From a virus, in IMG/VR virus record IMGVR_UViG_3300025164_000525, positions 1 through 21,490 of that record: a stretch of DNA of 21,490 nucleotides, one strand, 5' to 3'. The translations under genes were made by a program, and so were the position numbers. The notes under the pieces are model-generated. The model did not search any database and was not told the DNA's origin. It saw only the letters and a list, made by a program, of their open reading frames with translations. Positions 3,696 through 21,490 of the stretch are shown here, piece after piece (the stretch's first letter is position 1; every line of letters begins with the position of its first letter).

Positions 3696-3887
3696 ATGAT
3701 GACCACCCTCTACCAAATCCGCTCAACAGGTGAAGTAGTTCAGGCCATCGAATCCTTTGAACACGAAGGAGTCAGGGGGCACCTGGTGGAGCACTATAAC
3801 GGGGTGAAGAAAAGAGAGTTTTTACCTTGTGATGCCGTCTGGTTTGTCGCCATCAAAAACGTACAGTGTAAACCGTTGCAGATATGA
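3696..3887 (+). CDS. small unknown protein between terminase and portal
   Basis: The product has 63 residues and starts at the first ATG of an ATGATG pair; a GAAGGGG stretch lies about 15 bases upstream. It is mostly beta-like (MMTTLYQIRSTGEVVQAIES, then HLVEHYNGVKKREF) with a conserved-looking DAVWFVA near the end. It has no signal peptide, membrane segment or cysteine motif; the two cysteines are isolated. It resembles the small SH3-like or barrel proteins often wedged next to portal genes, but I cannot name a family. Its stop overlaps the portal start as ATGA, which implies matched expression with the portal. Confidence 0.65.
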   Translation: MMTTLYQIRSTGEVVQAIESFEHEGVRGHLVEHYNGVKKREFLPCDAVWFVAIKNVQCKPLQI

Positions 3888-5848
3888 CCGACCCCCAACT
3901 CCATACCGATTCCAGGGTGGCGCAACTCTCATCGGCCTGGACCGCTCTTCAAAACCGCTGGTCCGATTTCCGCGACGCTCAGGTGAAATCCTACAATTAC
4001 GCCATCGGCGATATGCTCGACCCTGATGTACGCAAAGAACTCAAGGCCGAAGGCCGTCCTATCTTCGAATTCCAACTCCCGAATCAGACTATCCTCTACT
4101 TGGCTGGTAAACTCAAAAAGGACACCACAAGGATCAAGGCCGTCCCCGTGCGAAGTGAAGACGTGGACGATTCGGAGTTTATCACCTCACTGGTGAACGA
4201 TTGGGCGATGGGCAACTGTGACGGCTATAACGAAATGGCCGGAGCCGGTATTGACGCTGCCATTGGCAAGGTAGGATATGTCTCGAATTATTGGGACATC
4301 CGCAGAGATCCCGAGGGGAAATGGTACACAGGGCGCATTGATCCCTTCCTGGTGATGTTCGACCCTGACTGTAAAAAGCTCAATCAGGATGATTGCCGTT
4401 TCGTGTCCTATTCTCCGATGATGAGCGCCGACGAGATCATTCAGGTCTATAAACGCTATCTCACCCCCGAACTCATCTCAGAGATCAGGCAAGAAGCCTC
4501 ACTCTACGAGAACGCCACCGTTTCAGTCTTCCAGAAAGCCCGTGCGTGGTTTGACCGCATCGGAACCCCGGTAGGAACACCCTTCAACGTCGAAAGGGAA
4601 GCCCGTCGTAAGAGTGGACTTCTAACCCCCTTCGTCGATGCGAAAGAGGGCCTCTACCGCGTCATCGAATGGCACGACCGCCGCACCGTCACGAAAAAGT
4701 ACGTCTACTCGCCAGTGACCCGCGACGTTATTGAAATCCCCGAAGAGAAACACTTGGACGAAGCGTACATCGTCAGTGAGATGAAGAAAATCCCCGGTGC
4801 GGTTGTGCAGGACGACTCCACCGAATTGCAGTATATCACGGTAGCCTGCCCGGCTCTCATCAAGGACAAGTTCGTTTTAGAGCAGCCCTACATGGTCCAA
4901 GGCCACGGCTACTCGATCAAATGGGTGTTGTGTTACAACTTCCACCCCGACGTGTTGAAAACGCAGTCCGTCCTCGATTCGCTCATTGCCCCGGTCGATA
5001 TGTATAACCAGCGGATGATGAGTAGTGTTCAACTGGTCGGCGACACCCTGAATCCCCCCATCGACGCGCCGAAAGGTTCGATCGACCCGGATGATATGCC
5101 GTCATGGAGATCCCGCGCCCGCGGCGTCATCCGGTTCTGGAATATCAGAGGTGGGTTCAAACCCGAACCCCGCAAGCCCGATATGAGTGTCTTCAACATC
5201 CTTCAGGTCCTGGCCGAAGAGGGGAAGAACTTGGGTGATTATATATCGGCAATCAGCCCCAACGCCCGGGGCTATCAGGAATCATCGAAAGAATCCGGCG
5301 TATTATTTGAATCCCGCAGGGCCGCTTCGGAGGTGATGACGGCCCACTTCTTCGACAACATGCAGGAGTTCATGTGTAATGTGTTCGATTACACCTTCGC
5401 CTCGATCCAAAAGTTTATGACGTTCGAGCGAACACTCAGGCTCTTTAATGACGAAGGCGATCCGTACTGGTTGGCGGTGAATCGAGAGACCCTTGAAGGT
5501 GTGATGAACGACCTTACCAAAGGCGAGTATGATTTCAAGCCGGACATTGCCGCGATTGGTGAAACCGCCCGCAAGGAGGCCGTTGCAACTTTGGCCGGTG
5601 TATCGGCGCTCTTTAGCGCTGATCCGGTTATGGGCATGGCCGTTGGAGCTGCGATCCTCCGCAACATGGACGTACCGGAAGCGAAGAAATTGGCCGCGTT
5701 CGCAGAGCAGCGCATTGGCGTGGCGGTCAATGCCGAGCAGATGCAGGCGCAACAGCAGGCAGTCTCAGACCAACTCGGAGCAGCCAGGCAGGTGAAGCAA
5801 CTCTCCGAACCAGCGAAAAAGAACGGAGCCTCGAATGGGAAAAGCTGA
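3884..5848 (+). CDS. portal protein, P22-like
   Basis: The protein has 654 residues. It forms the dodecameric ring at one capsid vertex through which DNA enters and leaves, docking TerL and later the connector proteins. The N-terminal part (20-60: WSDFRDAQVKSYNYAIGDM, then RPIFEFQLPNQTILYLAGK), the phrase DPFLVMFDPDCKKLNQDDCR in the wing region, and the long helical stretch DSLIAPVDMYNQRMMSSVQL near residues 365-385 match the style and order of P22-type portals. The C-terminal 100 residues (about 555-654) are Ala- and Gln-rich and helical, like the barrel or crown of that family, ending in a basic tail. The length is slightly below P22's 725 residues. The call rests on motif style plus its position between terL and the scaffold gene. 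The ATG overlaps the previous stop (ATGA). Confidence 0.88.
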   Translation: MTDPQLHTDSRVAQLSSAWTALQNRWSDFRDAQVKSYNYAIGDMLDPDVRKELKAEGRPIFEFQLPNQTILYLAGKLKKDTTRIKAVPVRSEDVDDSEFITSLVNDWAMGNCDGYNEMAGAGIDAAIGKVGYVSNYWDIRRDPEGKWYTGRIDPFLVMFDPDCKKLNQDDCRFVSYSPMMSADEIIQVYKRYLTPELISEIRQEASLYENATVSVFQKARAWFDRIGTPVGTPFNVEREARRKSGLLTPFVDAKEGLYRVIEWHDRRTVTKKYVYSPVTRDVIEIPEEKHLDEAYIVSEMKKIPGAVVQDDSTELQYITVACPALIKDKFVLEQPYMVQGHGYSIKWVLCYNFHPDVLKTQSVLDSLIAPVDMYNQRMMSSVQLVGDTLNPPIDAPKGSIDPDDMPSWRSRARGVIRFWNIRGGFKPEPRKPDMSVFNILQVLAEEGKNLGDYISAISPNARGYQESSKESGVLFESRRAASEVMTAHFFDNMQEFMCNVFDYTFASIQKFMTFERTLRLFNDEGDPYWLAVNRETLEGVMNDLTKGEYDFKPDIAAIGETARKEAVATLAGVSALFSADPVMGMAVGAAILRNMDVPEAKKLAAFAEQRIGVAVNAEQMQAQQQAVSDQLGAARQVKQLSEPAKKNGASNGKS

Positions 5849-8798: not shown

Positions 8799-9272
8799 AT
8801 GAAACACATCCTTCTTCTCGCAGCGCTCACGCTGGCCCTGATTGCCTCCGGGCTGGCTCAGATCGTGACGGTGGACTACCTCGTTACCGCGAACAACACC
8901 ATTCTCGACGATGAGGTGGTGACGGTGACGGATATACCGCTCGTCTATTCCGGGGTAACGTATGCCGGTCAGCTCAACGGCGTTCGTCCCGATTCCGTCC
9001 GCCTGGAATGGCGGGCAACGGCAACTGGCGACTCCATTAAAGCGGAGCCTGCTGTCGCCGTGGACTTCATGGGAAGCGGTCTGAGTTCCTATGTCGTCTA
9101 CGACACCGTTAAAGTCGCCGGACTTGGGACTCGCGTACTTCCTCGAAGCGTGTACGCCGCGTCCGATGTCATGGCGGTCAAGATCACAGCCCGCGCAGCG
9201 GGGAACACCTTAACCGGTGCGAACAAGCTCTGGCTGCAAGTTCGTCAGTTTTTCACACTTCCCAAACGCTAA
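8799..9272 (+). CDS. secreted small structural-type protein with Sec signal peptide
   Basis: The product has 157 residues. Residues 1-20 form a clear Sec signal peptide: Lys2, then a long Leu/Ala/Ile core, ending G-L-A with predicted cleavage before Gln21. The mature part begins QIVTV and is beta-rich (VTVDYLVTANNTILDDEVVT), like an immunoglobulin-type or jelly-roll domain. It has no cysteine and no lipobox. GGAGG at 8782-8786 provides the ribosome site. The gene follows the major capsid gene after 18 bases, a spot usually held by head decoration or fibre proteins. A signal peptide there is unexpected, because virion heads assemble in the cytoplasm. It could be a virion protein exported to the envelope, or a host-derived moron. 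The mature function is unknown. Confidence 0.82.
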   Translation: MKHILLLAALTLALIASGLAQIVTVDYLVTANNTILDDEVVTVTDIPLVYSGVTYAGQLNGVRPDSVRLEWRATATGDSIKAEPAVAVDFMGSGLSSYVVYDTVKVAGLGTRVLPRSVYAASDVMAVKITARAAGNTLTGANKLWLQVRQFFTLPKR

Positions 9273-10151: not shown

Positions 10152-10496
10152 ATGAAAACTCTCATTCTCTCCCTCTTCCTGGTGTGCGGACTCTCAAGTG
10201 TCGCCCACTCGCAAATCGTTTCAATCTTCGAAGCCCGCGAATTTAGCGATACGGCAACCGTCACATGGGATAGCGTCGCCATCGGCGGAAAGAACCTCGC
10301 CAAGCATATCGAGATCACCAATACCTCAGCCACGACACCGCTCTTGGTGGCGTTCGAAGACGATACGGTAGCCGGAACCTACTTCACCGTGCCGGTCAGT
10401 TCGACCAGGACACTGCCCTATGTAATCCAGCGCTCATACCTGAGAACGAAGACGGCGAGCTTGACGGCCATTTACCGAATTCTCACACTGAGATAG
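10152..10496 (+). CDS. secreted small virion-type protein with Sec signal peptide
   Basis: This is a 114-residue protein. Residues 1-20 are a textbook signal peptide (Lys2, a Leu/Ile/Phe/Val core, then A-H-S before Gln21, an A-x-S cleavage site). The mature part begins QIVSIFEAREF, close to the QIVTV start of the secreted protein encoded at 8799, and is about 94 residues of beta structure. The phrases KHIEITNTSATTPLLVAFED, AGTYFTVPVSS and RSYLRTKTA are in the style of small phage structural proteins that normally have no export signal. AAGGA at 10134-10138 lies 13 bases before the ATG. This combination of virion-like body and Sec signal is the reason to think that part of the particle is exported. 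The exact role is unknown. Confidence 0.8.
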   Translation: MKTLILSLFLVCGLSSVAHSQIVSIFEAREFSDTATVTWDSVAIGGKNLAKHIEITNTSATTPLLVAFEDDTVAGTYFTVPVSSTRTLPYVIQRSYLRTKTASLTAIYRILTLR

Positions 10497-10934: not shown

Positions 10935-12107
10935 ATGAAAAAAGCCCTGATGACTCTCGGGATTGTTTGCGCGATTTTCTGGCCCGGAGGGGAGAAAGCC
11001 GAATGTCAATATTCTGCCCGCGACCGGCGCAATCCCATTTATCGGACAATCGTGGTCGATACCGCCTACAATATGAAGGGCATCTATATCGCGGGATGGT
11101 ATATTGACTCGGCCTCTCTCGCGGGTTTATTGACGGGACAAACTCTGGTGGCTGACACTTCCGGCGGCCGCAAGCGGCTCACCGCCGGAGCGGGCGCAGG
11201 GGGAAGTATTACCGTGGTCGGGGACGCGACATACACTGGCCTCTCACAACTCGATCTTGATACGGCGAACTTCAACACCGTCCAGACGATTATCGGCCAA
11301 CTCCAAATCGCCCTCAAGCAAGATCTCGGGGTTTGGGCGCAGCCGGAATTCGGTGGCGTGTACATCCAGGACGGCGGCGGGGTGTATATGCGTCAATCTG
11401 GCGGCCTCTACACAGTTTCCTTAATCCCAAGCGCTTCCTCTGTCTCGAATGCGGTGATTCAGCTGCCTTCTATAAGCGGCGTCTTGGTATCATCGGCATT
11501 AACACCCCTATCAATCAGTCCAACGGGGATCATATCCTTTTCCGGCATCGTCCCGATCACGCAAGGTGGAACGGGGGCGAGCGTTGCGCCGGCGGCCGGG
11601 AGTATAATCTACTCCAATGGGGTGAATTATCTGGGGCTTTCCGGTACGAATGGATATTTCCCGCGGTTCGCTGGATCTGGAACGCCGACCGCCTACAATC
11701 TCTTCGGTACGGCAAACACCTGGACCGCCGGGCAAACATTTAACGCCGGTGTCGGCCTCAGCAATTTCACCATGACCAATTTGTCATACACCCCCGCCCT
11801 CGGGGAGTTTGTCCGCCAGAACGATTCGCTCAAAGTCGGTACGACAACGGGACAGCGGATATTTGAAGCCTCGAAAATTCCGACGACAATGTTCAGCGTC
11901 ATCATCCCATCCGGCATACTCCCATCGACAACCGTGTATATTCCGGAAGCGGGGTCCACCGACATCCAGCACGTCGTTGTGGGGGGCTATGCGCCGATCG
12001 GCAATATCATCATGATCGAGGTCGGCGCCGATTCCATGAAGTTTTCGACAAACGGAGAAGAAGTCGATCAAACCATTCTGAAGGTCTACAAACGGAAAAG
12101 GGAATAA
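10935..12107 (+). CDS. fibre-like protein with N-terminal signal peptide
   Basis: With the ATG at 10935 the protein has 390 residues; the frame is open upstream, but that part overlaps the previous gene. Residues 1-24 look like a signal peptide (two Lys, core ALMTLGIVCAIFW, then PGGEKAEC) with Gln25 as the first mature residue. Cys24 is not in a lipobox (no Leu at -3), so I do not call a lipoprotein. The body is beta-rich and repetitive. It contains PITQGGTGASVAPAAGSIIY, a GGTGA segment familiar from phage tail-fibre proteins, and AGQTFNAGVG. The C-terminal domain (about 325-390) is compact and ends with a basic KVYKRKRE. A receptor-binding fibre or fibre base is likely. The signal peptide is less canonical than in its neighbours. 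Confidence 0.78.
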   Translation: MKKALMTLGIVCAIFWPGGEKAECQYSARDRRNPIYRTIVVDTAYNMKGIYIAGWYIDSASLAGLLTGQTLVADTSGGRKRLTAGAGAGGSITVVGDATYTGLSQLDLDTANFNTVQTIIGQLQIALKQDLGVWAQPEFGGVYIQDGGGVYMRQSGGLYTVSLIPSASSVSNAVIQLPSISGVLVSSALTPLSISPTGIISFSGIVPITQGGTGASVAPAAGSIIYSNGVNYLGLSGTNGYFPRFAGSGTPTAYNLFGTANTWTAGQTFNAGVGLSNFTMTNLSYTPALGEFVRQNDSLKVGTTTGQRIFEASKIPTTMFSVIIPSGILPSTTVYIPEAGSTDIQHVVVGGYAPIGNIIMIEVGADSMKFSTNGEEVDQTILKVYKRKRE

Positions 12108-12109
12108 TA

Positions 12110-15100
12110 ATGAAATACCTACTCACACTGGCCGCTTCGGTCCTGTTCATCTCCGCATCCCTTATCGCCCAGGTCCGGGATGACTTCGCCTATACCGGGG
12201 CAGTCGCCGGTCAAAAGAAATGGGTGGCAATTACCGGCATTACCAACGGCCTAACGGCCTCAAGTGGCGCGGCGAAATCGTCCAACCCGTCATTCGCTGG
12301 ACTCGGCATGGTGGCGTGGGATTCGCTCATGCAGTCGAATACCGAACTTCGTATCAAATGGGACTCCCTATCCACCGGAACGGCGGGAACCGACCCGGTC
12401 TTGATAAACGCCATGCCGGGCAAGGCGTATGGCTCTGGAAATAACGGGTACAATTTCAGGGCGATGTATGCTCCTACCGGATCGAACGCTCTACGCTTTC
12501 ATCGTCAAACAGGGTCGGGTCGAACGATCATTTCCACCCTCTACCTGCCTGGTGGAGCTTCGCAGTGGGCGCGGGGGGACACCATATCTATCCGTATCTG
12601 GAACCTGAGTCCATTCTCAGCGTCGGCGTGGCGGTACCGGGCGGCGGGGACGCGGGACTCTTTAGGTCTTGTGTCTGATACACTCTACGACCTTTCGACG
12701 GGTTTTTACGCGTGGCTCGGCAATAGCACCGACACGATCACGGCCAAGCTTGACGATTTCTACACGGCCTCTCTCGGTGCGGGTGGAGCGACAAACACGC
12801 CTCCTACAATCACAGCCCTCACATCGTCCCCACCGTCGCCGAACGTGGCGACCGCCGATTCCCTGGTGACGATCACCATGAACGCCTCAGACGCGGGAGT
12901 AGGGGCGGGCCTTGATTCGATGAAGATATACGTTGATGGGTCCCTCGCGGCCCAAAAGGGGGGGATCACCGGAACATCGGATGTTTTATCAACGACCGCG
13001 ACACGGTACAGCGTTGGAGTACACACCTACTATGGACGGGTGAGGGACGATTCGGCGTCGGTAGTGCTTGAACCGACATCAGGCACGAAGACGTTTACGG
13101 TTGATTCCAACGCCTCGAGCTCCGCCCAGTATTGGGTTGAGGCATATTTCACCTCCTGGACCCTCAACATACCCGGAACAGCGGCGAACTACGGCGCACT
13201 GTTGATGTCGGACATCGACTGGACGACGTTCACCCACGCGCTGTTTTTCACTACGGGGCCGGGCTCAGCCGGTCAATTGCTGGTCGGAAACGGACTACCG
13301 ATCCGGCGTTCGACATTCACAAGCGAGGCGCACCTGCACGGCAAACCGGCAATCCTCTGTTTGGGGGGATTCGGCAACACGAATTGGGGGGCGGCGTGCA
13401 ATAACGATTCGATGCGGACCGTTTGGCTCAATAACGTATTGACCGAGGTAGACTCAATGGGTTGGGACGGCATCACGCTGGACATTGAGCCGTTCAGTAA
13501 TTCCGTCGGCGGCACGAACGACACGGGCCGCGTCGGTCCGTGGATCAGAAGACTGTATGACTCACTCCAGGTGAGAACTTCCGCCTACACCGCGACGGGA
13601 AAGCCGATGATAAACGCGTCGATGACTCCCTCGTGGGGCGGGGCGTGGTATGCCCGTCACGAATATCTCATGGATCAGATCAACCTGATGTCGTACGACG
13701 CTCCGGGCAACCTGGGGTGGGGCCAGAACCGGACCTGGCACATGAACCCCTTCTTCTCTACGAACAAAGATAATCCGACCGGCTCGAATCGGTACTATCA
13801 ATCAATTCAGGAGCGTTGGTTATCGAGTCAGGATGTCGCCTCCCCGGTGACGCTGACTAAGGCGAAATGGGGAATATCCCTCGACTGGAACGGCGTGTTG
13901 TGGCGGGGGGCGAGAAGCCCGACAAATCCCGACGAGGGGTGCACCGAACCCAAATGTATCTGGACATCACCCGCCATTGAACGGATCTACGACTACAACT
14001 TCGACCAGATGTATGCGCGGTTTCTCGATACGGCGACTTCCGCATCAATCCGGTGGGACGACTACCACAAAGGGGCGTACCTGAAAATACTGAAACCCGC
14101 ATCGGAGGCGCCGAACCCCGCCGCCCCCTGGGAAGACGACATTTTCCTCACCTATGCCGACTCGATGACCGTCGAGTATACACTGACGATGTTGACCGAT
14201 TCCGGCTTTGGGGGGTTTATCGTCTGGAACTACACCGAAGGGCAAAGGCCCCCTGGTTACCCAAACCGGAATCATAACATGGAGCTCATAAAACAAATCA
14301 TAATGACCGCCGCCGATACGACGACGCGAAGGATCACGTCGATCTCTCCGGCGACGAAGGTTGCAGGAGAAGTAGATTTCACGCTTACGGTGAACGGCAC
14401 GAACTTGAAGTCCGGCGACAGCGTATTTATCGGGGCGGACGTGTACCGGGCGACCTCGTACGTTGGGCCAACACAGCTGACAGCGGCGATCTTGGCGGCG
14501 GATATAGCGACGGCCGGCAACAAAGGAATTTACGTCAAGAACGGTGCGAACACATCGAACACCGTGAACCTCGTCGTCAATGCGGCCTCAACCCCGCCAG
14601 TCATTACCTCGGCATCTCCTTCAACCGTAGGCCAGGGGGCGGTAGACCGCAGTGTCACCATTTCGGGGTCGAACATCTCGTCGGGTCCAACACTCAGCGT
14701 TAGTGGTGCGGGGGTGACGGTCCTTAGCGCCGTCTATGTCAATTCGCAAACGATTACCGCCACACTCAGCGTGGGAGCGGGATCGGCGATTGGCGCAAGG
14801 AACCTCGTCCTGACCAACAACACCGGATTAAAAGATACACTGGTTGGGGGGTTGACGGTCACCCCTGCCCCAACCATTACAAGTCTCGTCCCGGACACGA
14901 TGTACCCTGGGACGACGCAAGCCCTCACCTTAACAGGAACAAATTTCCTTTCCGGCACAGACCTGGCGTTTGTATTCTCAAATTCAGGGGTGATAATTAT
15001 TGGGGCGTACACGCTGACGGGGGCAACCTCGGTAAGTGTCACGGTCGGGACCAATGCGACGCTCCCGGTCGGGAGTTATTCGCTCACTTTCGTCAACGGG

Positions 15101-16459
15101 GACGGTGGAAGGGTAACGCTTTCTAATGCCCTGAAGATTGTGGCAAGGACATCGACGCAGATATCGTCGAACTCCGTCTACATCGTTGAAGGTGGAGTCA
15201 GGAAATTTAAGAGCCCCGATTATTTCACCCTTAAAGACATCCCCGCGACGCAAATCCCGGTATCGCTCACCGGGTTTGGCAACCTCGGCTTAAACGGAAT
15301 CAGGTACGCTGATGGATCGCTGGCCTATCCGAATTTCTCCATGCAGCTCGGTTCCGATGGGACCTCTGCCACATCCCCGGTCAAAATATGGGCAACCGAC
15401 GGGGTGGGGGTCACGCTCTCCGCTGATGGCTTCCACTTCTCAAGCCCACTGGCGACGAACAGCACACGCGGCTCGGTGATTGGAAACTCGTATTTCGACG
15501 TTATCAACGGGTCGATTGAGCCGAAGGATGGAAGTATACCATCAACAAAACTTATTTGGCCCATTCCCGCCCAGGCATTACCGAGTGAAATAATTTACGC
15601 ATTTGGCGGCGATAGTGGCACGATCCCAATGCTTACCGGATCAGACATCTTCGCCGGATATACCTTTGTGCCCCTGCCAACCACCGGATCGCCGGCACTC
15701 GACCCTGAAACGGACTTCGTGTTTTGGGAAGAATTTCCCCACGGTGGAATCAGTACGACCATCAATGGGAATAACGCACTCAGTAGCGCGATGAATCTTG
15801 GGTCGAACGAATGGTTTGTTGCCGGTTTTGGTGGGGATGCAACGGTCTCGCTCACCGTCACGTCAGAATCTTGGGGATCTGTTTCCCCGGCCCGGTTTGG
15901 GATAATCAGTCTTGACCCCTCCGCAGCGTCGGTGATGGGCACCGAAAGGGGCGGATACGTCACAATGAACAGTTCCGGGTCCACCTACCCATTCCCGATG
16001 ATGGCCCCGGCAACGTATAAATTCGGCGTGTACACCCCTGCCACGACCGACTCGATGGGATGGATGATCGGCGTTGTGGAAAGGAATGCGACGTCCGCCG
16101 TTTCCGCCGATGACCTGGCGACGACGAACGAGGCAATCCTATTTAATTTCGGGTCGGTCGCCGCGACGAACGACACCCTGTACGCGATTGTTACCGGAAA
16201 CGCTGTGAAAAACAAGATAGCCCTGAGAACCGTCGCGTTATCGACGGCGTACAAACTCAAGATCGTGGTCGCGGCCTCCTCGATCGCATTCTATGTTAAT
16301 GATACCCTCAAAACGACGGTGACAACAAACCTTCCGGCAAACACGACAACCGCAACACCCGTCATCGCGGCGTGGAATTACGGGGCGGACTTGGTGGCGA
16401 CGGGGAAGAATCTCCTGGTCGATTACTACTACTTCAAAGCGTCCGGATTAAATAGGTAG
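12110..16459 (+). CDS. giant secreted GH18 glycan hydrolase with TIG and fibre-like domains
   Basis: The protein has 1449 residues. Order: signal peptide 1-20 cut before Gln21; concanavalin-like beta domain (about 25-220); Ig/fibronectin-like domain (235-330); glycoside hydrolase 18 barrel (about 340-730); three TIG/IPT domains (740-823, 829-919, 921-1012); a fibre-like region (1020-1150); and a C-terminal beta-sandwich (about 1200-1449) ending LLVDYYYFKASGLNR. GH18 landmarks are the CLGGFG strand near 415, WDGITLDIE (Asp453, Asp458, acid Glu460), MSYD at 527-530 and Trp706. The usual DxxDxDxE has Thr456 in place of the second Asp, so activity may be altered; the Glu is intact. GH18 enzymes cleave beta-1,4 bonds in chitin, N-glycans or peptidoglycan. 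The last two regions are phage tail style, so this is probably a receptor-directed depolymerase fibre rather than a free host chitinase. The substrate is unknown. Confidence 0.85.
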   Translation: MKYLLTLAASVLFISASLIAQVRDDFAYTGAVAGQKKWVAITGITNGLTASSGAAKSSNPSFAGLGMVAWDSLMQSNTELRIKWDSLSTGTAGTDPVLINAMPGKAYGSGNNGYNFRAMYAPTGSNALRFHRQTGSGRTIISTLYLPGGASQWARGDTISIRIWNLSPFSASAWRYRAAGTRDSLGLVSDTLYDLSTGFYAWLGNSTDTITAKLDDFYTASLGAGGATNTPPTITALTSSPPSPNVATADSLVTITMNASDAGVGAGLDSMKIYVDGSLAAQKGGITGTSDVLSTTATRYSVGVHTYYGRVRDDSASVVLEPTSGTKTFTVDSNASSSAQYWVEAYFTSWTLNIPGTAANYGALLMSDIDWTTFTHALFFTTGPGSAGQLLVGNGLPIRRSTFTSEAHLHGKPAILCLGGFGNTNWGAACNNDSMRTVWLNNVLTEVDSMGWDGITLDIEPFSNSVGGTNDTGRVGPWIRRLYDSLQVRTSAYTATGKPMINASMTPSWGGAWYARHEYLMDQINLMSYDAPGNLGWGQNRTWHMNPFFSTNKDNPTGSNRYYQSIQERWLSSQDVASPVTLTKAKWGISLDWNGVLWRGARSPTNPDEGCTEPKCIWTSPAIERIYDYNFDQMYARFLDTATSASIRWDDYHKGAYLKILKPASEAPNPAAPWEDDIFLTYADSMTVEYTLTMLTDSGFGGFIVWNYTEGQRPPGYPNRNHNMELIKQIIMTAADTTTRRITSISPATKVAGEVDFTLTVNGTNLKSGDSVFIGADVYRATSYVGPTQLTAAILAADIATAGNKGIYVKNGANTSNTVNLVVNAASTPPVITSASPSTVGQGAVDRSVTISGSNISSGPTLSVSGAGVTVLSAVYVNSQTITATLSVGAGSAIGARNLVLTNNTGLKDTLVGGLTVTPAPTITSLVPDTMYPGTTQALTLTGTNFLSGTDLAFVFSNSGVIIIGAYTLTGATSVSVTVGTNATLPVGSYSLTFVNGDGGRVTLSNALKIVARTSTQISSNSVYIVEGGVRKFKSPDYFTLKDIPATQIPVSLTGFGNLGLNGIRYADGSLAYPNFSMQLGSDGTSATSPVKIWATDGVGVTLSADGFHFSSPLATNSTRGSVIGNSYFDVINGSIEPKDGSIPSTKLIWPIPAQALPSEIIYAFGGDSGTIPMLTGSDIFAGYTFVPLPTTGSPALDPETDFVFWEEFPHGGISTTINGNNALSSAMNLGSNEWFVAGFGGDATVSLTVTSESWGSVSPARFGIISLDPSAASVMGTERGGYVTMNSSGSTYPFPMMAPATYKFGVYTPATTDSMGWMIGVVERNATSAVSADDLATTNEAILFNFGSVAATNDTLYAIVTGNAVKNKIALRTVALSTAYKLKIVVAASSIAFYVNDTLKTTVTTNLPANTTTATPVIAAWNYGADLVATGKNLLVDYYYFKASGLNR

Positions 16460-16468
16460 AGGCGCACC

Positions 16469-16951
16469 ATGTTTGGAAATCCGATTACCGACGGAGTGCA
16501 GCTCATCAATGGCCCCTATGGGGATGTCGTAGCGTTCGATCTGACGGTCCAAAACCTCAAGGAGTTGAATGGGGTGGATCTTGTGGATCTGGTGACGAAC
16601 GACAGCATTCAACTGGCGAGTCCATCAACGAAGGCTGAAGTGTTCTCGATGCCTTTTTCCTCGACCAACTTGACCGACGCGGCCTATTACCGCGAGGGAC
16701 CGATGGTATATGTCTTCGTCCGGATAGCAACATATGAATATGACGCGAACACAAGGATTGCCTTCTGGTACAGCGCGAACCCGGATCGAGTGACAACGCT
16801 GACAGGTACGGTGATGCCCTTGCCAGCGCAGTATAAACAGCTCGCCCTCGCCATGATCGCCCGGAACCTCATCCCGGACGATCCAGGGTTAAGGCCGGGA
16901 TTCGTGCTTGATGAAGCGGTCCGCAGTGAAAAGGCCAAAGTGGGGTTATGA
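16469..16951 (+). CDS. unknown protein at start of connector cluster
   Basis: The product has 160 residues. The N-terminal two-thirds (10-115) are beta-rich (DGVQLINGPYGDVVAFDLTV, MVYVFVRIATYEY). The end has a helix (AQYKQLALAMIARNLIP) and an acidic/basic tail. No signal peptide or membrane segment is visible. Its stop overlaps the next start (ATGA at 16948), tying it to the adaptor genes. By position it could be a neck or tail-completion protein, or a partner attaching the large hydrolase upstream to the virion, but I recognise no family. Confidence 0.68.
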   Translation: MFGNPITDGVQLINGPYGDVVAFDLTVQNLKELNGVDLVDLVTNDSIQLASPSTKAEVFSMPFSSTNLTDAAYYREGPMVYVFVRIATYEYDANTRIAFWYSANPDRVTTLTGTVMPLPAQYKQLALAMIARNLIPDDPGLRPGFVLDEAVRSEKAKVGL

Positions 16952-17580
16952 GCTTTAAGCGCGTTGATACCATCTTTGCCCGGGTCCAGCGGAACGTGAA
17001 ATCAGCCGGAGCCGGGCCAGAGGGAGTGCAATCCTTTGACGCCGATACGATTCTTGACGCAATGAGTGAGACGCATGAGGAGATCGCCCGCGATGGTTAC
17101 GCGATCCGTGATATGACCGACCTGACGACCGAAGCCGGTACGGCGCGTTACGACATCCTGGGGCTTTACAAAATTGCGGGGTTGAGGATGCCCGCCGACT
17201 GGAAAGAGCCTATTACAATCGAGGAAAATCTGGAAAGCTGGCTTGAGTATATCGCTAATCCGCTCACCTACACTCAGCCGGTGAAAGCTCTCTCATGGGG
17301 AAATTATCTTGAATTCTTCCCATCTCCGGCAGTCTCTGGGTTAAAGGTGGGCGTGTATTTCTACCGGATACCGACCGCTCTATTGGTATTAGGCGCCGAC
17401 CCTGAATCACCAAGGGAATGGGATTATGTGATTACCGAGGGTGCAACGGCAAAACTCCTCGGCGGTGGCGACTATGCGGCGATGTATCAGGCCGCCGTCG
17501 ACGATGCAAAGCAAAAGGGATTGAAAGAAACCGCAGGCGGCCTTATCACAGTCCAGCATTGGAGCGATAGGGGATTTTAG
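16948..17580 (+). CDS. head-tail adaptor-like protein 1
   Basis: This 210-residue protein resembles the helical adaptor proteins (HK97 gp6 / P22 gp4 type) that ring the portal exit and close the filled head. The N-terminal helices (FDADTILDAMSETHEEIARD) are followed by the beta unit LTTEAGTARYDILGLYKIAG, the usual 'T-x-x-G-x-x-x-Y' entry of this fold. The strand WGNYLEFFPSPAVSGLKVGV then matches the 'l-x-l-x-P-x-P' step before the Y-rich strand (YFYRIP). The C-terminal helices (YAAMYQAAVDDAKQKGL) complete the bundle. The length is typical. It starts by ATGA overlap with the previous gene, and a similar but larger protein follows after 3 bases. The assignment is by fold-pattern recognition, not by alignment. 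Confidence 0.68.
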   Translation: MSFKRVDTIFARVQRNVKSAGAGPEGVQSFDADTILDAMSETHEEIARDGYAIRDMTDLTTEAGTARYDILGLYKIAGLRMPADWKEPITIEENLESWLEYIANPLTYTQPVKALSWGNYLEFFPSPAVSGLKVGVYFYRIPTALLVLGADPESPREWDYVITEGATAKLLGGGDYAAMYQAAVDDAKQKGLKETAGGLITVQHWSDRGF

Positions 17581-17583
17581 GCC

Positions 17584-18447
17584 GTGGCCTCGACCAGATT
17601 CAATAATAACATCCTTGTTGCGGCTCGCAGACTTCAGCAGAACCGTAGCGTTGCCGGCCCAGGTGGAGATACCGGCAATCGCTACACATCCGCTCGGCTA
17701 TCAGACTACCAAAACAGGGCAATCCGCGATCTCATCAAGGCGAAATACGATACAGCCCCAGATTTATTTCCGCTTCGCTATCCCCAGATGATGAAGACGA
17801 GCGATCCCTTTACCATTGACGCGCTGACGAGGATCGCTATTCCGAGCGATGTATGGTTGGTCACCGAACTCTGGCTCGGGAGCTTGAAATTCAAGAAGGT
17901 TCCAGACCACAGAATTGGCGACGTACTTTCAGGTGTGGACCGCTTGATCGTCCCAAGCGTGAATGAACCCGCCTTCTTCACTGAAAACGGGTATATGTAT
18001 TTCCTCCCCGATACGGGCTTGACTGGTGAGGTGAAATACCGGTTCGTCAAGGAACACGCTGATATTGCAGTCAATACGGCTGCTTCCGGTGTCGGAAATA
18101 AGAACACGGCCAACGGCGCATTCACTGTAGCGACCAAGCAGCTCACCGCCGCGATGTCGATTGCCTTTGCGGATTCAGACGTGGGAAAAAAAATCATTTT
18201 TGCAACAGTCAACGGGATTGGTACTCTGACGGGTGTTTACGAATCACTGATCTTTGCAAAGGTGAGCGCGACCGAAGTGACGATAGGGGGCGATTATCTC
18301 CCCACGGCGAATGAAATAGTCTCGACTGTGTTGGTGAGCGACTATACCCCGGAACTCTCAGACATTCAAATCAGTAAGTACGATGACGGCGCGATCATTG
18401 ATCTCATGGTCGGCCTCGCCACAACGGATCAAGCGGCAAAACCCTAA
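17584..18447 (+). CDS. head-tail adaptor-like protein 2 with inserted beta domain
   Basis: The product has 287 residues and a GTG start 3 bases after the previous stop. Residues 30-155 follow the adaptor pattern: helix (RLSDYQNRAIRDLIKAKYDT), entry strand (TIDALTRIAIPSDVWLVTEL), then FTENGYMYFLPDTGLTGEVK and YRFV. The expected last step, polar residues then a helix (ELSDIQISKYDDGAIIDLMV), appears only at 257-275. Between them lies about 95 residues (160-253) of beta structure containing AFADSDVGKKIIFATVNGIG, a small beta unit often seen as a separate domain in phage proteins. The protein therefore looks like an adaptor interrupted by an extra domain. It probably forms a further ring of the neck. 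No clear ribosome site is visible, so translation may depend on coupling. Confidence 0.65.
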   Translation: MASTRFNNNILVAARRLQQNRSVAGPGGDTGNRYTSARLSDYQNRAIRDLIKAKYDTAPDLFPLRYPQMMKTSDPFTIDALTRIAIPSDVWLVTELWLGSLKFKKVPDHRIGDVLSGVDRLIVPSVNEPAFFTENGYMYFLPDTGLTGEVKYRFVKEHADIAVNTAASGVGNKNTANGAFTVATKQLTAAMSIAFADSDVGKKIIFATVNGIGTLTGVYESLIFAKVSATEVTIGGDYLPTANEIVSTVLVSDYTPELSDIQISKYDDGAIIDLMVGLATTDQAAKP

Positions 18448-18466
18448 ATAAAAGGAGAATGGTGGT

Positions 18467-18850
18467 ATGGACGCTCTTCATCAAATCGCAACACTGATCG
18501 CAACAGTCCTCGGGACGACCCCCGATAAGCTGGTGGCGGTTCTTTTTGGCGCTGTCATGGCCCCGGTCACCTATCAGGTGACAAAGCAGCTTGACATCTG
18601 GTTCGCAAAACTCGGTTGGTTTGCAGAAGCTGAAACCGCGAAGATCAAGGGTACGGTGATGGTGGTTCTCTCGTCACTCGTATCTGTTGGCGTGATTTTT
18701 CTCATCGGACTCGTGTTCGGCGTGGACTACATGAGCAACGAATCGCTTTTTACCGGGATTGTGGGCGCATTGGGTGTGAATCAGACGATTGCCACGTTCA
18801 TCTTCCATCGGGTCAAGGCGAAAAACGCAGGGCGGATCATCTCCGGGTAA
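18467..18850 (+). CDS. three-helix membrane protein, holin-like
   Basis: The product has 127 residues. Three hydrophobic segments are visible: about 22-42 (LVAVLFGAVMAPVTYQV), 65-87 (VMVVLSSLVSVGVIFLIGLV) and 94-113 (LFTGIVGALGVNQTIATFIF). A charged loop with a Trp pair lies between the first two, and a short basic tail (HRVKAKNAGR) follows. The size, helix number and basic end fit a class I holin, which would open the inner membrane for lysis. AAGGAG at 18452-18457 is a strong ribosome site 9 bases before the ATG. The gene lies among connector genes with no endolysin beside it, so holin is only the likeliest guess. A membrane anchor for particle assembly or release is an alternative. Confidence 0.65.
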   Translation: MDALHQIATLIATVLGTTPDKLVAVLFGAVMAPVTYQVTKQLDIWFAKLGWFAEAETAKIKGTVMVVLSSLVSVGVIFLIGLVFGVDYMSNESLFTGIVGALGVNQTIATFIFHRVKAKNAGRIISG

Positions 18851-18857
18851 AGCATAA

Positions 18858-19736
18858 GTGAAAAACAACCTCACATACGCGGTCCTCGATCAACTCTGCT
18901 TAGTCCAGGCAGGCGTCGATCCAGACGTGATCGACCAAGCGGTTCGCCGTGAGATCATCAATGCGGTAGTCTTCCGTCTCTGGGCGAAGAGGAAGGACGA
19001 TCCCTTCTACCGGTTCACCTCGACTCTGGCTGTAGCGGCGGATCTCGAGGCGCTCTGTACCGTTGGGTGGACGATCCCCGCAAGCCCGATTATTCTGGCC
19101 GGGAGTGCCGTCATCACCGACTTCACGGCCACAACCATCACGCGCTCCACCGGGACGTTTCCGGTCGGATCAATATTAGGTCTCACGTTGATCCGCCGAG
19201 CGGGAGCGAATTACGGGATTGGAACGGCAGTGGCGCGAGTAACGCTCGGAGGGGCGACGGCGACGTTCGAACTTCTGATCGGCTTCATGGACGCCTATAA
19301 CGCGGCTAATGACGCGCTGATGGTGGCGGTCTTAAAATCGCAGAGCGTCCTCTCGTCCGATTTCTCGCCCTACTATTTCGACCGGATCATCCGCATCCAC
19401 GATAGTGTCAGTCGTCCAACGCAGGGGGATTTTGATGCCGTCGGCTCAGGTGAGGAATTTTCAAACCTGAAATATCTGAAAACGAAAGCCTCTCGCGTAG
19501 CCTATCGCCACCGTGGGACGACGATTGATTTCTTCGTCGGCTCATCGGCGCTCCCGCTCGGTGTTATTATGGTTGAATATGCCGGCAAGCCTGGGACGTA
19601 CACGCTCGCCACTGCCGACACCGAAATTCTCCTGCAACCGGAAGACAACGCGGAGTTAATCGCCGAAGTGACAAAGACCTTTTCCGAAATTTCAAAGGAA
19701 CCTTCCGTAGACAAAACCCCCAACCGGGGAGGATAG
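18858..19736 (+). CDS. head-tail adaptor-like protein 3 with inserted beta domain
   Basis: The product has 292 residues and a GTG start 8 bases after the holin-like gene. The N-terminal helices (VLDQLCLVQAGVDPDVIDQA, then VRREIINAVVFRLWAKRKDD) and RFTSTLAVAADLEAL resemble the adaptor opening. About 95 residues of beta-rich sequence (roughly 70-165, including TFPVGSILGLTLIRRAGANY) then intervene before YYFDRIIRIHDS resumes the expected order. DFFVGSSALPLGVIMVEYAG and ILLQPEDNAELIAEVTK match the closing strand and helix of that fold. The extra part falls earlier in the fold than in the protein encoded at 17584. It probably forms a neck or tail ring next to the hub protein that follows. The start is uncertain because no ribosome site is evident. 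Confidence 0.62.
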   Translation: MKNNLTYAVLDQLCLVQAGVDPDVIDQAVRREIINAVVFRLWAKRKDDPFYRFTSTLAVAADLEALCTVGWTIPASPIILAGSAVITDFTATTITRSTGTFPVGSILGLTLIRRAGANYGIGTAVARVTLGGATATFELLIGFMDAYNAANDALMVAVLKSQSVLSSDFSPYYFDRIIRIHDSVSRPTQGDFDAVGSGEEFSNLKYLKTKASRVAYRHRGTTIDFFVGSSALPLGVIMVEYAGKPGTYTLATADTEILLQPEDNAELIAEVTKTFSEISKEPSVDKTPNRGG

Positions 19737-19749
19737 GCCCTCGGAGAAG

Positions 19750-21490
19750 ATGGGACGAAACGCCCCCCCAGAACACATCGTTTTCAAGGACTTCAAAGGT
19801 CTTCGCACCTCGATTGGAGATCCCGCGCCCAATAGCGCGATCGGCTGCCGCAACGTCGTGCGCTCAAAGAAACTCGGTCACTTGGAACTCGGGATACCCT
19901 ACGAGTTTAGGTTTCCGACAGAAGACGCGAATCTCCCGCAATCGGGCGATCTCGAAATTTCCAATTATCTCAATCCGGCCATTCATAAGATGACAAATCT
20001 GGTCTTCGAGAACGTCCACAATTTCTACGTCCCGGATCACGGGGGGCGCAACATCACGGTCGTGGTCGGCACTTACACGAAGACGGGGTTTTTCCCAGGA
20101 TCTCCAACGGTAGACCGTTCTGGGGTATTTGTTCGTCCTTTCTGGGATGGTTCTGCATGGATAGACGCATGGCGCGAACTCACCGAGATGTTCATTTTCG
20201 AACTCACGTCGCTTGGTTCGACGAATCCCGGCGTTGTGACGGCCGCGCCGCCATTCTTAGGCAACGATGCCACGGTCGGAACGGTGGATTGGATACCGTC
20301 AGGCTCCCCGCCCTCTAATCCCGGAGCATTCACTCGGCTCAACGACGACATCTTTATCGAGGCGACGCTCAACGCGGCCGCTCAATCGAAGTATGCAAAT
20401 CTTAGCGGCGGTGTGAGCCTGACCTTTCTGCCGGTCGGGACAACGATCGTCGGGGTGACGGCGCACATCATCGGCAAAGGGTCGGTCGATACATGTCCCG
20501 TTCAACTGGAAAACGTACGGCTGGTTAAAAATGGGGCCTTGGCAGGCACCGTGAAAACGGATACGAGCACCTGGGATATCGAGAAATCAGAAAAAACGCT
20601 TGGTGGAGCGGCCGATCTCTGGGGAACGACATTCCTGCGGACCGACACCATCTCGATCGCCGTGAGCGCGAAGAATTACGACAGCGTCGCCAGGAAGATC
20701 TCGCTCGATCAGATTTATTTGAAGGTCCACATCAACCCCGGAGGCCTTAATCAAATTAACATCTCCGAGGGAGCCGACCCATACGATTTTGCCGTTCTCG
20801 ACCCTCTCGCCGGGGTCTTCAACGGGGACTATTTTAAGGGCTGGACGATCGTCTACGATCGGTCCGGTGATAATGAAAACTACGATCTGGTGGTCCGCTG
20901 CGGGTATGACGGCACGCGCTATTTCCTGGAGACGACCCACCCCGTGACCGATTTCACCTCGCGGATTGCCGGAACCAAGATCCTCCTCTATAGAAACTTT
21001 CTCACCAGCGAGACCCCGGCGGCGCTATCGAGCTATTTTCACAACGTGCTCAATGAGATGCGTCTGACCACCGGGAATCTCTTTTCTGATCTGGCGCTCA
21101 AAGGCGGGTTCCGGACGAAACCGGCGGTAATCTTCGACGGGTCGGACCCGCTACCGCAGGTGGACGAGCTCATCCTGGTCCATTCTGGCGCAGAGGACTG
21201 GAAATATGCCGTGCTGGCGGCGATCACAGGAACCAGCCCCGGAGCGCAAAACCCGCTCTCAGCCGGCACCTACTACCTGAAATACTCGATCGTCTACGAT
21301 GACGGCAGTATCGGCCCACTCTACGATGTCATCACCCGGACGGCCGGCGTGTTTAGCGCCTCGGCCCAGGTGATCGTTGCTGATGGCGAGCAGATCTCTC
21401 TGACGGTCTATCGTTCGTATGGAGCCTTCCCGAAAAAGGGGAGGGGTGTCAACATCTATATGAGCGATGATAACGTGTATTTCTACCGGG
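19750..21490 (+). CDS. tail hub/nozzle-like protein (P22 gp10-type), 3' end outside window
   Basis: The frame is open from the ATG at 19750 (GGAG at 19743-19746, a second GGGGAGG at about 19725) to the window edge, giving 580 residues with no stop. The start FKDFKGLRTSIGDPAP, then SAIGCRNVVRSKKLGHLELG, has the 'G-x-N-x-x-x-x-x-x-C-x-N' then 'x-x-G-x-x-x' opening seen in P22 gp10 / T7 gp12-type tail hub proteins, which plug the neck and form the tail nozzle. Residues 180-330 are an extra beta-rich part. From about 500 on, GTYYLKYSIVYDDGSIGPLY and GRGVNIYMSDDN resemble the nozzle repeats of that family. There is no signal peptide. This gene, plus the absence of a tape-measure gene, is the basis for suggesting a short tail. 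Family placement is moderately sure. Confidence 0.72.
   Translation, partial: MGRNAPPEHIVFKDFKGLRTSIGDPAPNSAIGCRNVVRSKKLGHLELGIPYEFRFPTEDANLPQSGDLEISNYLNPAIHKMTNLVFENVHNFYVPDHGGRNITVVVGTYTKTGFFPGSPTVDRSGVFVRPFWDGSAWIDAWRELTEMFIFELTSLGSTNPGVVTAAPPFLGNDATVGTVDWIPSGSPPSNPGAFTRLNDDIFIEATLNAAAQSKYANLSGGVSLTFLPVGTTIVGVTAHIIGKGSVDTCPVQLENVRLVKNGALAGTVKTDTSTWDIEKSEKTLGGAADLWGTTFLRTDTISIAVSAKNYDSVARKISLDQIYLKVHINPGGLNQINISEGADPYDFAVLDPLAGVFNGDYFKGWTIVYDRSGDNENYDLVVRCGYDGTRYFLETTHPVTDFTSRIAGTKILLYRNFLTSETPAALSSYFHNVLNEMRLTTGNLFSDLALKGGFRTKPAVIFDGSDPLPQVDELILVHSGAEDWKYAVLAAITGTSPGAQNPLSAGTYYLKYSIVYDDGSIGPLYDVITRTAGVFSASAQVIVADGEQISLTVYRSYGAFPKKGRGVNIYMSDDNVYFYR

Follow-up and report, generated by a model that had tools for sequence, protein, structure and literature searches.

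A possible multi-ring neck built on an SU10-type adaptor in a putative podovirus known only from metagenomes

Does the neck of a short-tailed phage apparently outside the crassviruses contain more than one ring of adaptor proteins? The question is raised by a 21,490-base stretch of viral DNA (IMG/VR virus record IMGVR_UViG_3300025164_000525; hereafter the window) from a phage known only from metagenomes. A preliminary description of the window proposed that three proteins in a row resemble the adaptors of tailed phages, that two of them carry an extra beta domain of ~95 residues, and that together they form a taller neck of stacked rings, comparable in idea to that of crAss-like phages. Proteins of the adaptor/ring superfamily, which includes HK97 gp6, P22 gp4, T7 gp11 and the crAss rings, have a fold of helices plus a beta-sandwich. 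Our analysis assigns the first of the three proteins (P0002) to the SU10-type adaptors and suggests a relationship of the second (P0003) to crAss ring proteins. A podovirus neck composed of a P22-like portal, the P0002 adaptor, at least one further ring formed by P0003, a nozzle and perhaps a third ring formed by the third protein (P0004) is a reading to which we give slightly less than an even chance.

Results

An SU10-type adaptor and a candidate second ring protein

All three open reading frames (ORFs) are present on the + strand at 16948-17580 (P0002, 210 amino acids, aa), 17584-18447 (P0003, 287 aa) and 18858-19736 (P0004, 292 aa), the latter two with GTG starts. They lie close together, although the second and third are separated by a 127-aa holin-like membrane ORF (18467..18850, + strand; called from its sequence and a ribosome-binding site seen by eye, best PHROG match E 0.071), so the three are neighbors rather than strictly consecutive genes.

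P0002 (STATISTICALLY) matches the Pfam family SU10_adaptor (PF24175) with E 3.5e-10 and 41.1 bits, the cut-off being 27, covering profile positions 5-181 of 194, and thereby shares a family with gp11 of Escherichia phage SU10 (Kuravirus). It also aligned by hhalign to an SU10 adaptor profile (P 4.2e-7), and none of 240 background ORFs scored as well. This profile contains 12 sequences, SU10 gp11 and 11 others from 11 of the 396 genomes of one phylum sample, and its members were picked with the PF24175 model, so that it is not independent of the Pfam match. We identify P0002 with confidence, from its sequence, as an SU10-type adaptor, as the preliminary description had anticipated for the first protein. 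A tblastn search for relatives of P0002 among phages found none at E up to 0.1.

The case for a second ring protein begins with a pairwise survey, in which P0001 to P0004 (P0003 and P0004 without their inserts; P0001 is the product of the ORF upstream of P0002) were compared with ten adaptor/ring-type sequences and seven controls. Insert-free P0003 aligned to the crAss Ring 3 protein gp35 with a local score of 57, which none of 500 shuffles reached. In larger sets of 20000 shuffles it was reached 24 times when P0003 was shuffled and 16 times when gp35 was; none of 1052 real ORFs reached it (best 50). Because gp35 gave P0003 its best pairwise match, nine crassvirus records were used to build ring profiles, with 8 sequences for crAss Ring 1, 7 for Ring 2 and 13 for Ring 3/4. 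Against the Ring 3/4 profile, P0003 scored 27.1 in hhalign (P 0.0031, and P 0.0019 without the insert), a value matched by none of 240 and none of 1052 background ORFs, the best of which scored 22.2. The set of 1052 ORFs covers frames 150-320 aa long from loci L006, L007, L014-L100 and L102-L180, with near-identical contigs left out; some true adaptors are among them, as are many frames that are not translated. The aligned core stretch of P0003 (residues 83-126, IPSDVW..., 17830..17961, + strand) begins with the motif (I/L)P-x-D, which visual inspection also finds in crAss and SU10-type proteins.

For calibration, SU10 gp11 reached 29.2 with the Ring 1 profile and 22.3 with that of Ring 3/4, scores that none of 240 background ORFs equaled in either case, and T7 gp11, also an adaptor, went undetected by the profiles (12, 33 and 118 of 240 as good for Ring 1, Ring 2 and Ring 3/4, respectively). 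Since the scores of SU10 gp11 are similar, the P0003 signal appears to be about as strong as that between two remotely related proteins that are both known neck rings, and it suggests that P0003 is a relative of the ring/adaptor superfamily with its nearest resemblance to crAss Ring 3/4.

Several results weigh against this assignment. The Ring 3/4 match spans only 36 aligned columns, and the profile includes gp35, already the best pairwise match to P0003, so that the two results are not independent. With its insert retained, P0003 scored 49 against gp35, a value reached by 228 of 20000 shuffles. P0003 fell within the background for the SU10 profile (27 of 240 ORFs as good) and for profiles of the four crAss001 rings (8 of 240), the pooled set (13 of 240), Ring 1 (105 of 240) and Ring 2 (38 of 240). 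There were 24 protein-profile comparisons by hhalign, or 36 with the insert-free forms, plus many single-sequence ones, and after correction for the profile comparisons the chance of the Ring 3/4 result is about 2-3%. Finally, P0003 had no family match in Pfam or PHROG, whole or without its insert, including the SU10_adaptor and CrAss_Ring Pfam models. The proposal that the second protein is adaptor-like therefore keeps a suggestive profile score, but no family match. No phage relative of P0003 was found by tblastn up to E 0.1 (a match at E 4 lay within a gyrase gene and was rejected), and a single-sequence AlphaFold model of residues 1-165 had a predicted local distance difference test (pLDDT) score of 34.9, with every residue below 50.

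A probable nozzle gene and the gene order of SU10

The P0003 and P0004 genes are flanked by the adaptor gene on one side and a probable nozzle gene of SU10 type on the other, an arrangement that supports a stack. The nozzle candidate (19750..21489, + strand) runs past the window end and has 979 aa in the near-identical contig IMGVR_UViG_3300025326_000085 (G001; 42,670 bases). It matches phrog_3287, the PHROG of SU10 nozzle gp17, at E 4.5e-4 over residues 619-826 (SU10 gp17 itself, 8.4e-116), its only family match apart from Pfam matches below cut-off. Its alignment to gp17 by hhalign was not significant (P 0.082). The part of the candidate within the window also resembles a 757-aa ORF of locus L006 with the annotation tail tubular protein, matching it at E 4e-10 in phmmer and, over residues 227-332, at E 0.01 in tblastn. 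We regard the ORF from 19750 as a probable gp17-type nozzle on this sequence evidence; that the call comes down to one weak PHROG match counts against the stacked neck.

In SU10, adaptor gp11 is followed by fibers gp12 and gp13, a holin, a lysis gene, short fiber gp16 and nozzle gp17, and the window has a similar order of adaptor, holin, a gene before the nozzle, and nozzle. The published account of SU10 describes a dodecamer of one adaptor, with a fiber dock domain (PMC9509320). Unlike SU10, with its one adaptor gene, the window has one or two further candidates after the adaptor, and Pfam classes its portal as P22-like, the SU10_portal match staying under the cut-off.

The third candidate, P0004

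P0004 (18858..19736, + strand) was called adaptor-like from a pattern seen by eye: two N-terminal helices, strands and a last helix. This claim fared least well. No match was found to Pfam or PHROG families, whole or without the insert, and background ORFs were frequently as good against the profiles for SU10 (62 of 240), Ring 1 (174 of 240), Ring 2 (30 of 240) and Ring 3/4 (421 of 1052), so that no profile score rose above background. A single-sequence AlphaFold model had a pLDDT of 37.6, and Foldseek with this low-confidence model gave no match at E <= 0.001. Searches for relatives returned none among phages (tblastn, E up to 10) and no match in 50 whole records. Two further points tell against P0004 as a ring: its place, behind the holin-like ORF and before the nozzle candidate, is like that of gp16 in SU10, and without its insert it aligns to gp16 with an uncorrected local alignment p of 0.04. 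Because of this gene place and alignment, P0004 may have a tail role other than that of a ring.

The same observations bear on a neck in which P0002 is the only ring and P0003 and P0004, in the place of SU10 gp12 to gp16, are fiber-docking, collar or short-tail-fiber proteins, an alternative that we consider a serious one at rather less than an even chance. It draws on the SU10 order, in which a holin and a short fiber precede the nozzle much as the holin-like ORF precedes P0004, and on the missing adaptor signal of P0004. It also agrees with the crAss001 report, in which several ring genes are apparently defining for crassviruses and other podoviruses have been seen with one such ring only (PMC10172136). 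However, the Ring 3/4 score of P0003 exceeds those of all 1052 background ORFs, P0004 does not look like a trimeric fiber by eye, and its hhalign comparison with gp16 was not significant (P 0.11).

Beta-rich inserts in adaptors of other phages

Inspection of the sequences places beta-rich inserts at residues 162-251 of P0003 (90 residues; 18067..18336, + strand) and residues 73-159 of P0004 (87 residues; 19074..19334, + strand). Two insertions of about the size first proposed are thus present, although their boundaries were drawn by eye, and the only structural hint of either is a set of strands from 93 to 161 in the low-confidence P0004 model. Searched alone, the P0003 insert had phrog_26732 as its best PHROG match (E 0.02); a match of the P0004 insert to 'ring protein gp10' (8zkk) at E 0.29 was taken as chance.

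Such inserts would be informative about stacked rings if they were confined to multi-ring necks. By eye, the adaptors of the environmental podoviruses MW202520 (L014) and MW202674 (L015) have a beta-rich stretch inserted between helix 2 and the sheet, near the place of the P0004 insert, that of MW202573 (L018) has no insert of this kind, and those of L145 and L173 have two inserts in tandem. When P22-type loci were collected with an adaptor seed, each had one adaptor ORF (16 in 16 loci). Because adaptors of phages showing one adaptor ORF carry beta-rich inserts too, the inserts are a weak clue: judged by eye, they do not appear to mark multi-ring necks and would prove little by themselves, so that they lend the stacked-ring idea less than the preliminary description supposed.

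Two side observations concern inserts elsewhere. An SU10-family adaptor in L208 (8979-9977, minus strand) has, by eye, a beta-rich insert of ~90 residues near its hairpin. In seven P22-type loci (L173, L161, L136, L145, L142, L144 and L123), a second ORF at or near the adaptor 3' side matches an insert-bearing adaptor profile, and this match probably comes through the beta insert.

P0001 and comparisons among the neck proteins

If the ORF upstream of the adaptor gene (P0001, 160 aa, 16469..16951, + strand) also encoded an adaptor-like protein, the stack would comprise P0001 to P0004 and match the number of ring genes in crAss001. The C-terminal half of P0001 looks adaptor-like by eye only and shares the hairpin-then-helix pattern of P0004, and hhalign aligned its residues 118-149 with positions 194-225 of Ring 1 (P 0.043). 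Eight of 240 background ORFs were as good, so the Ring 1 score is not significant; moreover, P0001 appears to have no counterpart of the two helices with which an adaptor should begin, and it has no Pfam match and a best PHROG E of 0.21, a result that also lends nothing to the stacked neck. We consider four rings very unlikely.

With inserts removed, none of the six pairs among P0001 to P0004 showed similarity above shuffles, P0001 and P0004 included. P0001, P0003 and P0004 had no match to PF24175 as whole proteins at E up to 1, and P0001 and the insert-free P0003 and P0004 had none at E up to 10, a range in which the HMMER filters discard most matches above E ~0.1.

Genome context and virion type

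The window starts at position 10186 of G001, and the two differ at 2 positions over window 16901-19740. The start of G001, its first 25-30 bases excepted, repeats its last ~118 bases, and both contig ends encode the same protein sequence; because of this, we regard the genome as probably complete, with a length of about 42.5 kb.

Gene order begins with a terminase (matching several terminase families), a portal, a scaffold-like ORF, the capsid (7455; phrog_334, E 6.6e-18) and several ORFs with signal-peptide-like starts. A 1449-aa protein, P0001, P0002, P0003, the holin-like ORF, P0004 and the nozzle candidate follow, and then, in G001, a 1019-aa tail-fiber-like protein, small ORFs and a very large ORF across the contig ends, the last 450 residues of which weakly match phrog_342, an internal virion protein family (E 0.0074). 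The portal (654 aa, 3884..5848, + strand) is clearly P22-like in sequence, with a Pfam P22_portal match at E 2.8e-54 and 19.9 bits against SU10_portal, under its cut-off of 30. No sheath, baseplate, tube or tape-measure gene was recognized when the G001 ORFs were read by eye, only some of them having been family-searched. Since no sheath, baseplate or tube gene was recognized and the portal is P22-like, the gene content points to a podovirus.

Small neck proteins in succession also occur in siphophages, where they could be the connector, stopper and tail-terminator of a long-tailed virion. This explanation is contradicted by the P22-like portal and the probable SU10-type nozzle, and no tail-tube or tape-measure gene was recognized in the same partly family-searched reading; we find it hardly credible.

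Five ORFs have signal-peptide-like starts that end before Q (window 8799-9272, 10152-10496, 10935-12107 and 12110-16459; L009 5202-8261), and in two of them the stretch begins at an inner start. A signal-peptide-like stretch ending before Q resembles those of Bacteroidota-type secreted proteins. These starts are odd for virion proteins and perhaps hint at the host. In the 1449-aa ORF (window 12110-16459), three TIG stretches accompany a GH18 glycosyl hydrolase domain (E 1.6e-12), and from these domains it is perhaps a chitinase-like depolymerase of the virion.

Searches for relatives

The searches made found no relatives of the window neck proteins outside near-identical contigs, which also weighs against the stacked neck. 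When viral contigs were scanned for patterns taken from P0002, P0003, P0004 and the nozzle candidate, only the 42.7 kb sister contig was returned, and a terminase pattern scan returned this contig plus two more near-identical ones. With near-identical contigs excluded, phmmer found no relative of P0002 to P0004 among the ORFs of at least 80 terminase and at least 80 portal loci. A strict Walker pattern scan of viral contigs gave known contigs only, and the terminase had no relative in the genomes searched; a looser Walker pattern matched an unrelated gene in the genomes and was discarded, the genome of that match serving as the center for the phylum searches. Hhalign comparisons of single sequences were not significant, and a 43-position hairpin hidden Markov model was abandoned as an adaptor detector, P0002 itself ranking 194 of 7000. 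The portals of MW202573, MW202520 and MW202674 are related to that of the window. Unlike the window, L007 and L014 have a stabilization protein as the next annotated gene after the adaptor, and L015 and L018 have one gene between.

A second locus comes from an Acidobacteria phylum sample (L210, contig G327:C58, 8839-11229, minus strand), where an SU10-family adaptor (PF24175, E 6.0e-6) is preceded by an ORF of ~251 aa, with a small ORF between, and followed by one of 187 aa, adaptor-looking by eye, and then one of 702 aa. The 251-aa ORF gives borderline results (P 0.011 with the SU10 profile; 2 of 240 background ORFs as good against Ring 1), and 6 of 240 were as good as the 187-aa ORF against Ring 3/4. 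Neither flanking ORF had a family match (Pfam and PHROGs for the 187-aa ORF, Pfam for the 251-aa ORF). PHROG matches of the 702-aa ORF were mostly to tail-fiber families over ~60 residues, and it is nozzle-like by eye only. By hhalign the L210 ORFs had no significant link to P0003 or P0004; the best pair between P0001-P0004 and this locus, insert-free P0004 with the 187-aa ORF, was equaled by 6 of 200 background ORFs. The nozzle candidate and the 187-aa ORF had no useful relative in the 396-genome phylum sample. L210 is a possible second multi-adaptor neck.

Discussion

How far does the analogy with crassviruses extend? The published account of crAss001 describes a barrel of five rings from four paralogous proteins, which are 14.9-18.6% identical save for one pair at 30.6% (PMC10172136); the ring proteins are gp43, gp40, gp35 and gp34, and the muzzle is gp44. 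As in crAss001, several ring-type candidate genes precede the nozzle or muzzle gene in the window, and the core stretch of P0003 shows a suggestive resemblance to Ring 3/4. In contrast to crAss001, P0001 to P0004 have no match to the crAss ring models in the Pfam copy used (PF24228, PF25702 and PF25710), and the genome is about 42.5 kb, with a P22-like portal, rather than 102.7 kb. In crAss001 the genes for the rings take up ~7 kb and begin one gene after that of the capsid. The analogy thus gains some support from the Ring 3/4 resemblance but none from the CrAss_Ring families: the window neck possibly works like a multi-ring barrel, and by Pfam its proteins are not members of the crAss ring families.

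In the multi-ring neck that we favor, a ring of the SU10-type adaptor P0002 would cap the P22-like portal, P0003, like Ring 3/4, would form a further ring that lengthens the DNA channel, the gp17-type nozzle would close the stack, and P0004 may add a third ring to it. On the rings, the beta inserts of both proteins might hang outward as fiber docking sites or bracing. We infer the symmetry of the rings, their stacking order, the inclusion of P0004 among them and the function of the inserts. Since the two lines of evidence for P0003, profile and pairwise, depend on each other and the nozzle call is one weak match, the taller neck of the preliminary description survives in a weakened, partly supported form, with one confidently assigned adaptor and a possible second ring.

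The fullest version, a three-ring barrel with beta domains on two rings in a phage that seems not to belong to Crassvirales and has a P22-like portal with an SU10-type adaptor and nozzle, we regard as unlikely. No other multi-ring podovirus was noticed in the portions of the open-access literature covered. If such a barrel exists, multi-ring barrels would be a general design of short-tailed phages rather than a crassvirus hallmark, and L210 may be a second case. Barrel length would then grow by the addition of adaptor copies in other short-tailed phages as well, and the window would supply sequence clues for finding more of them.

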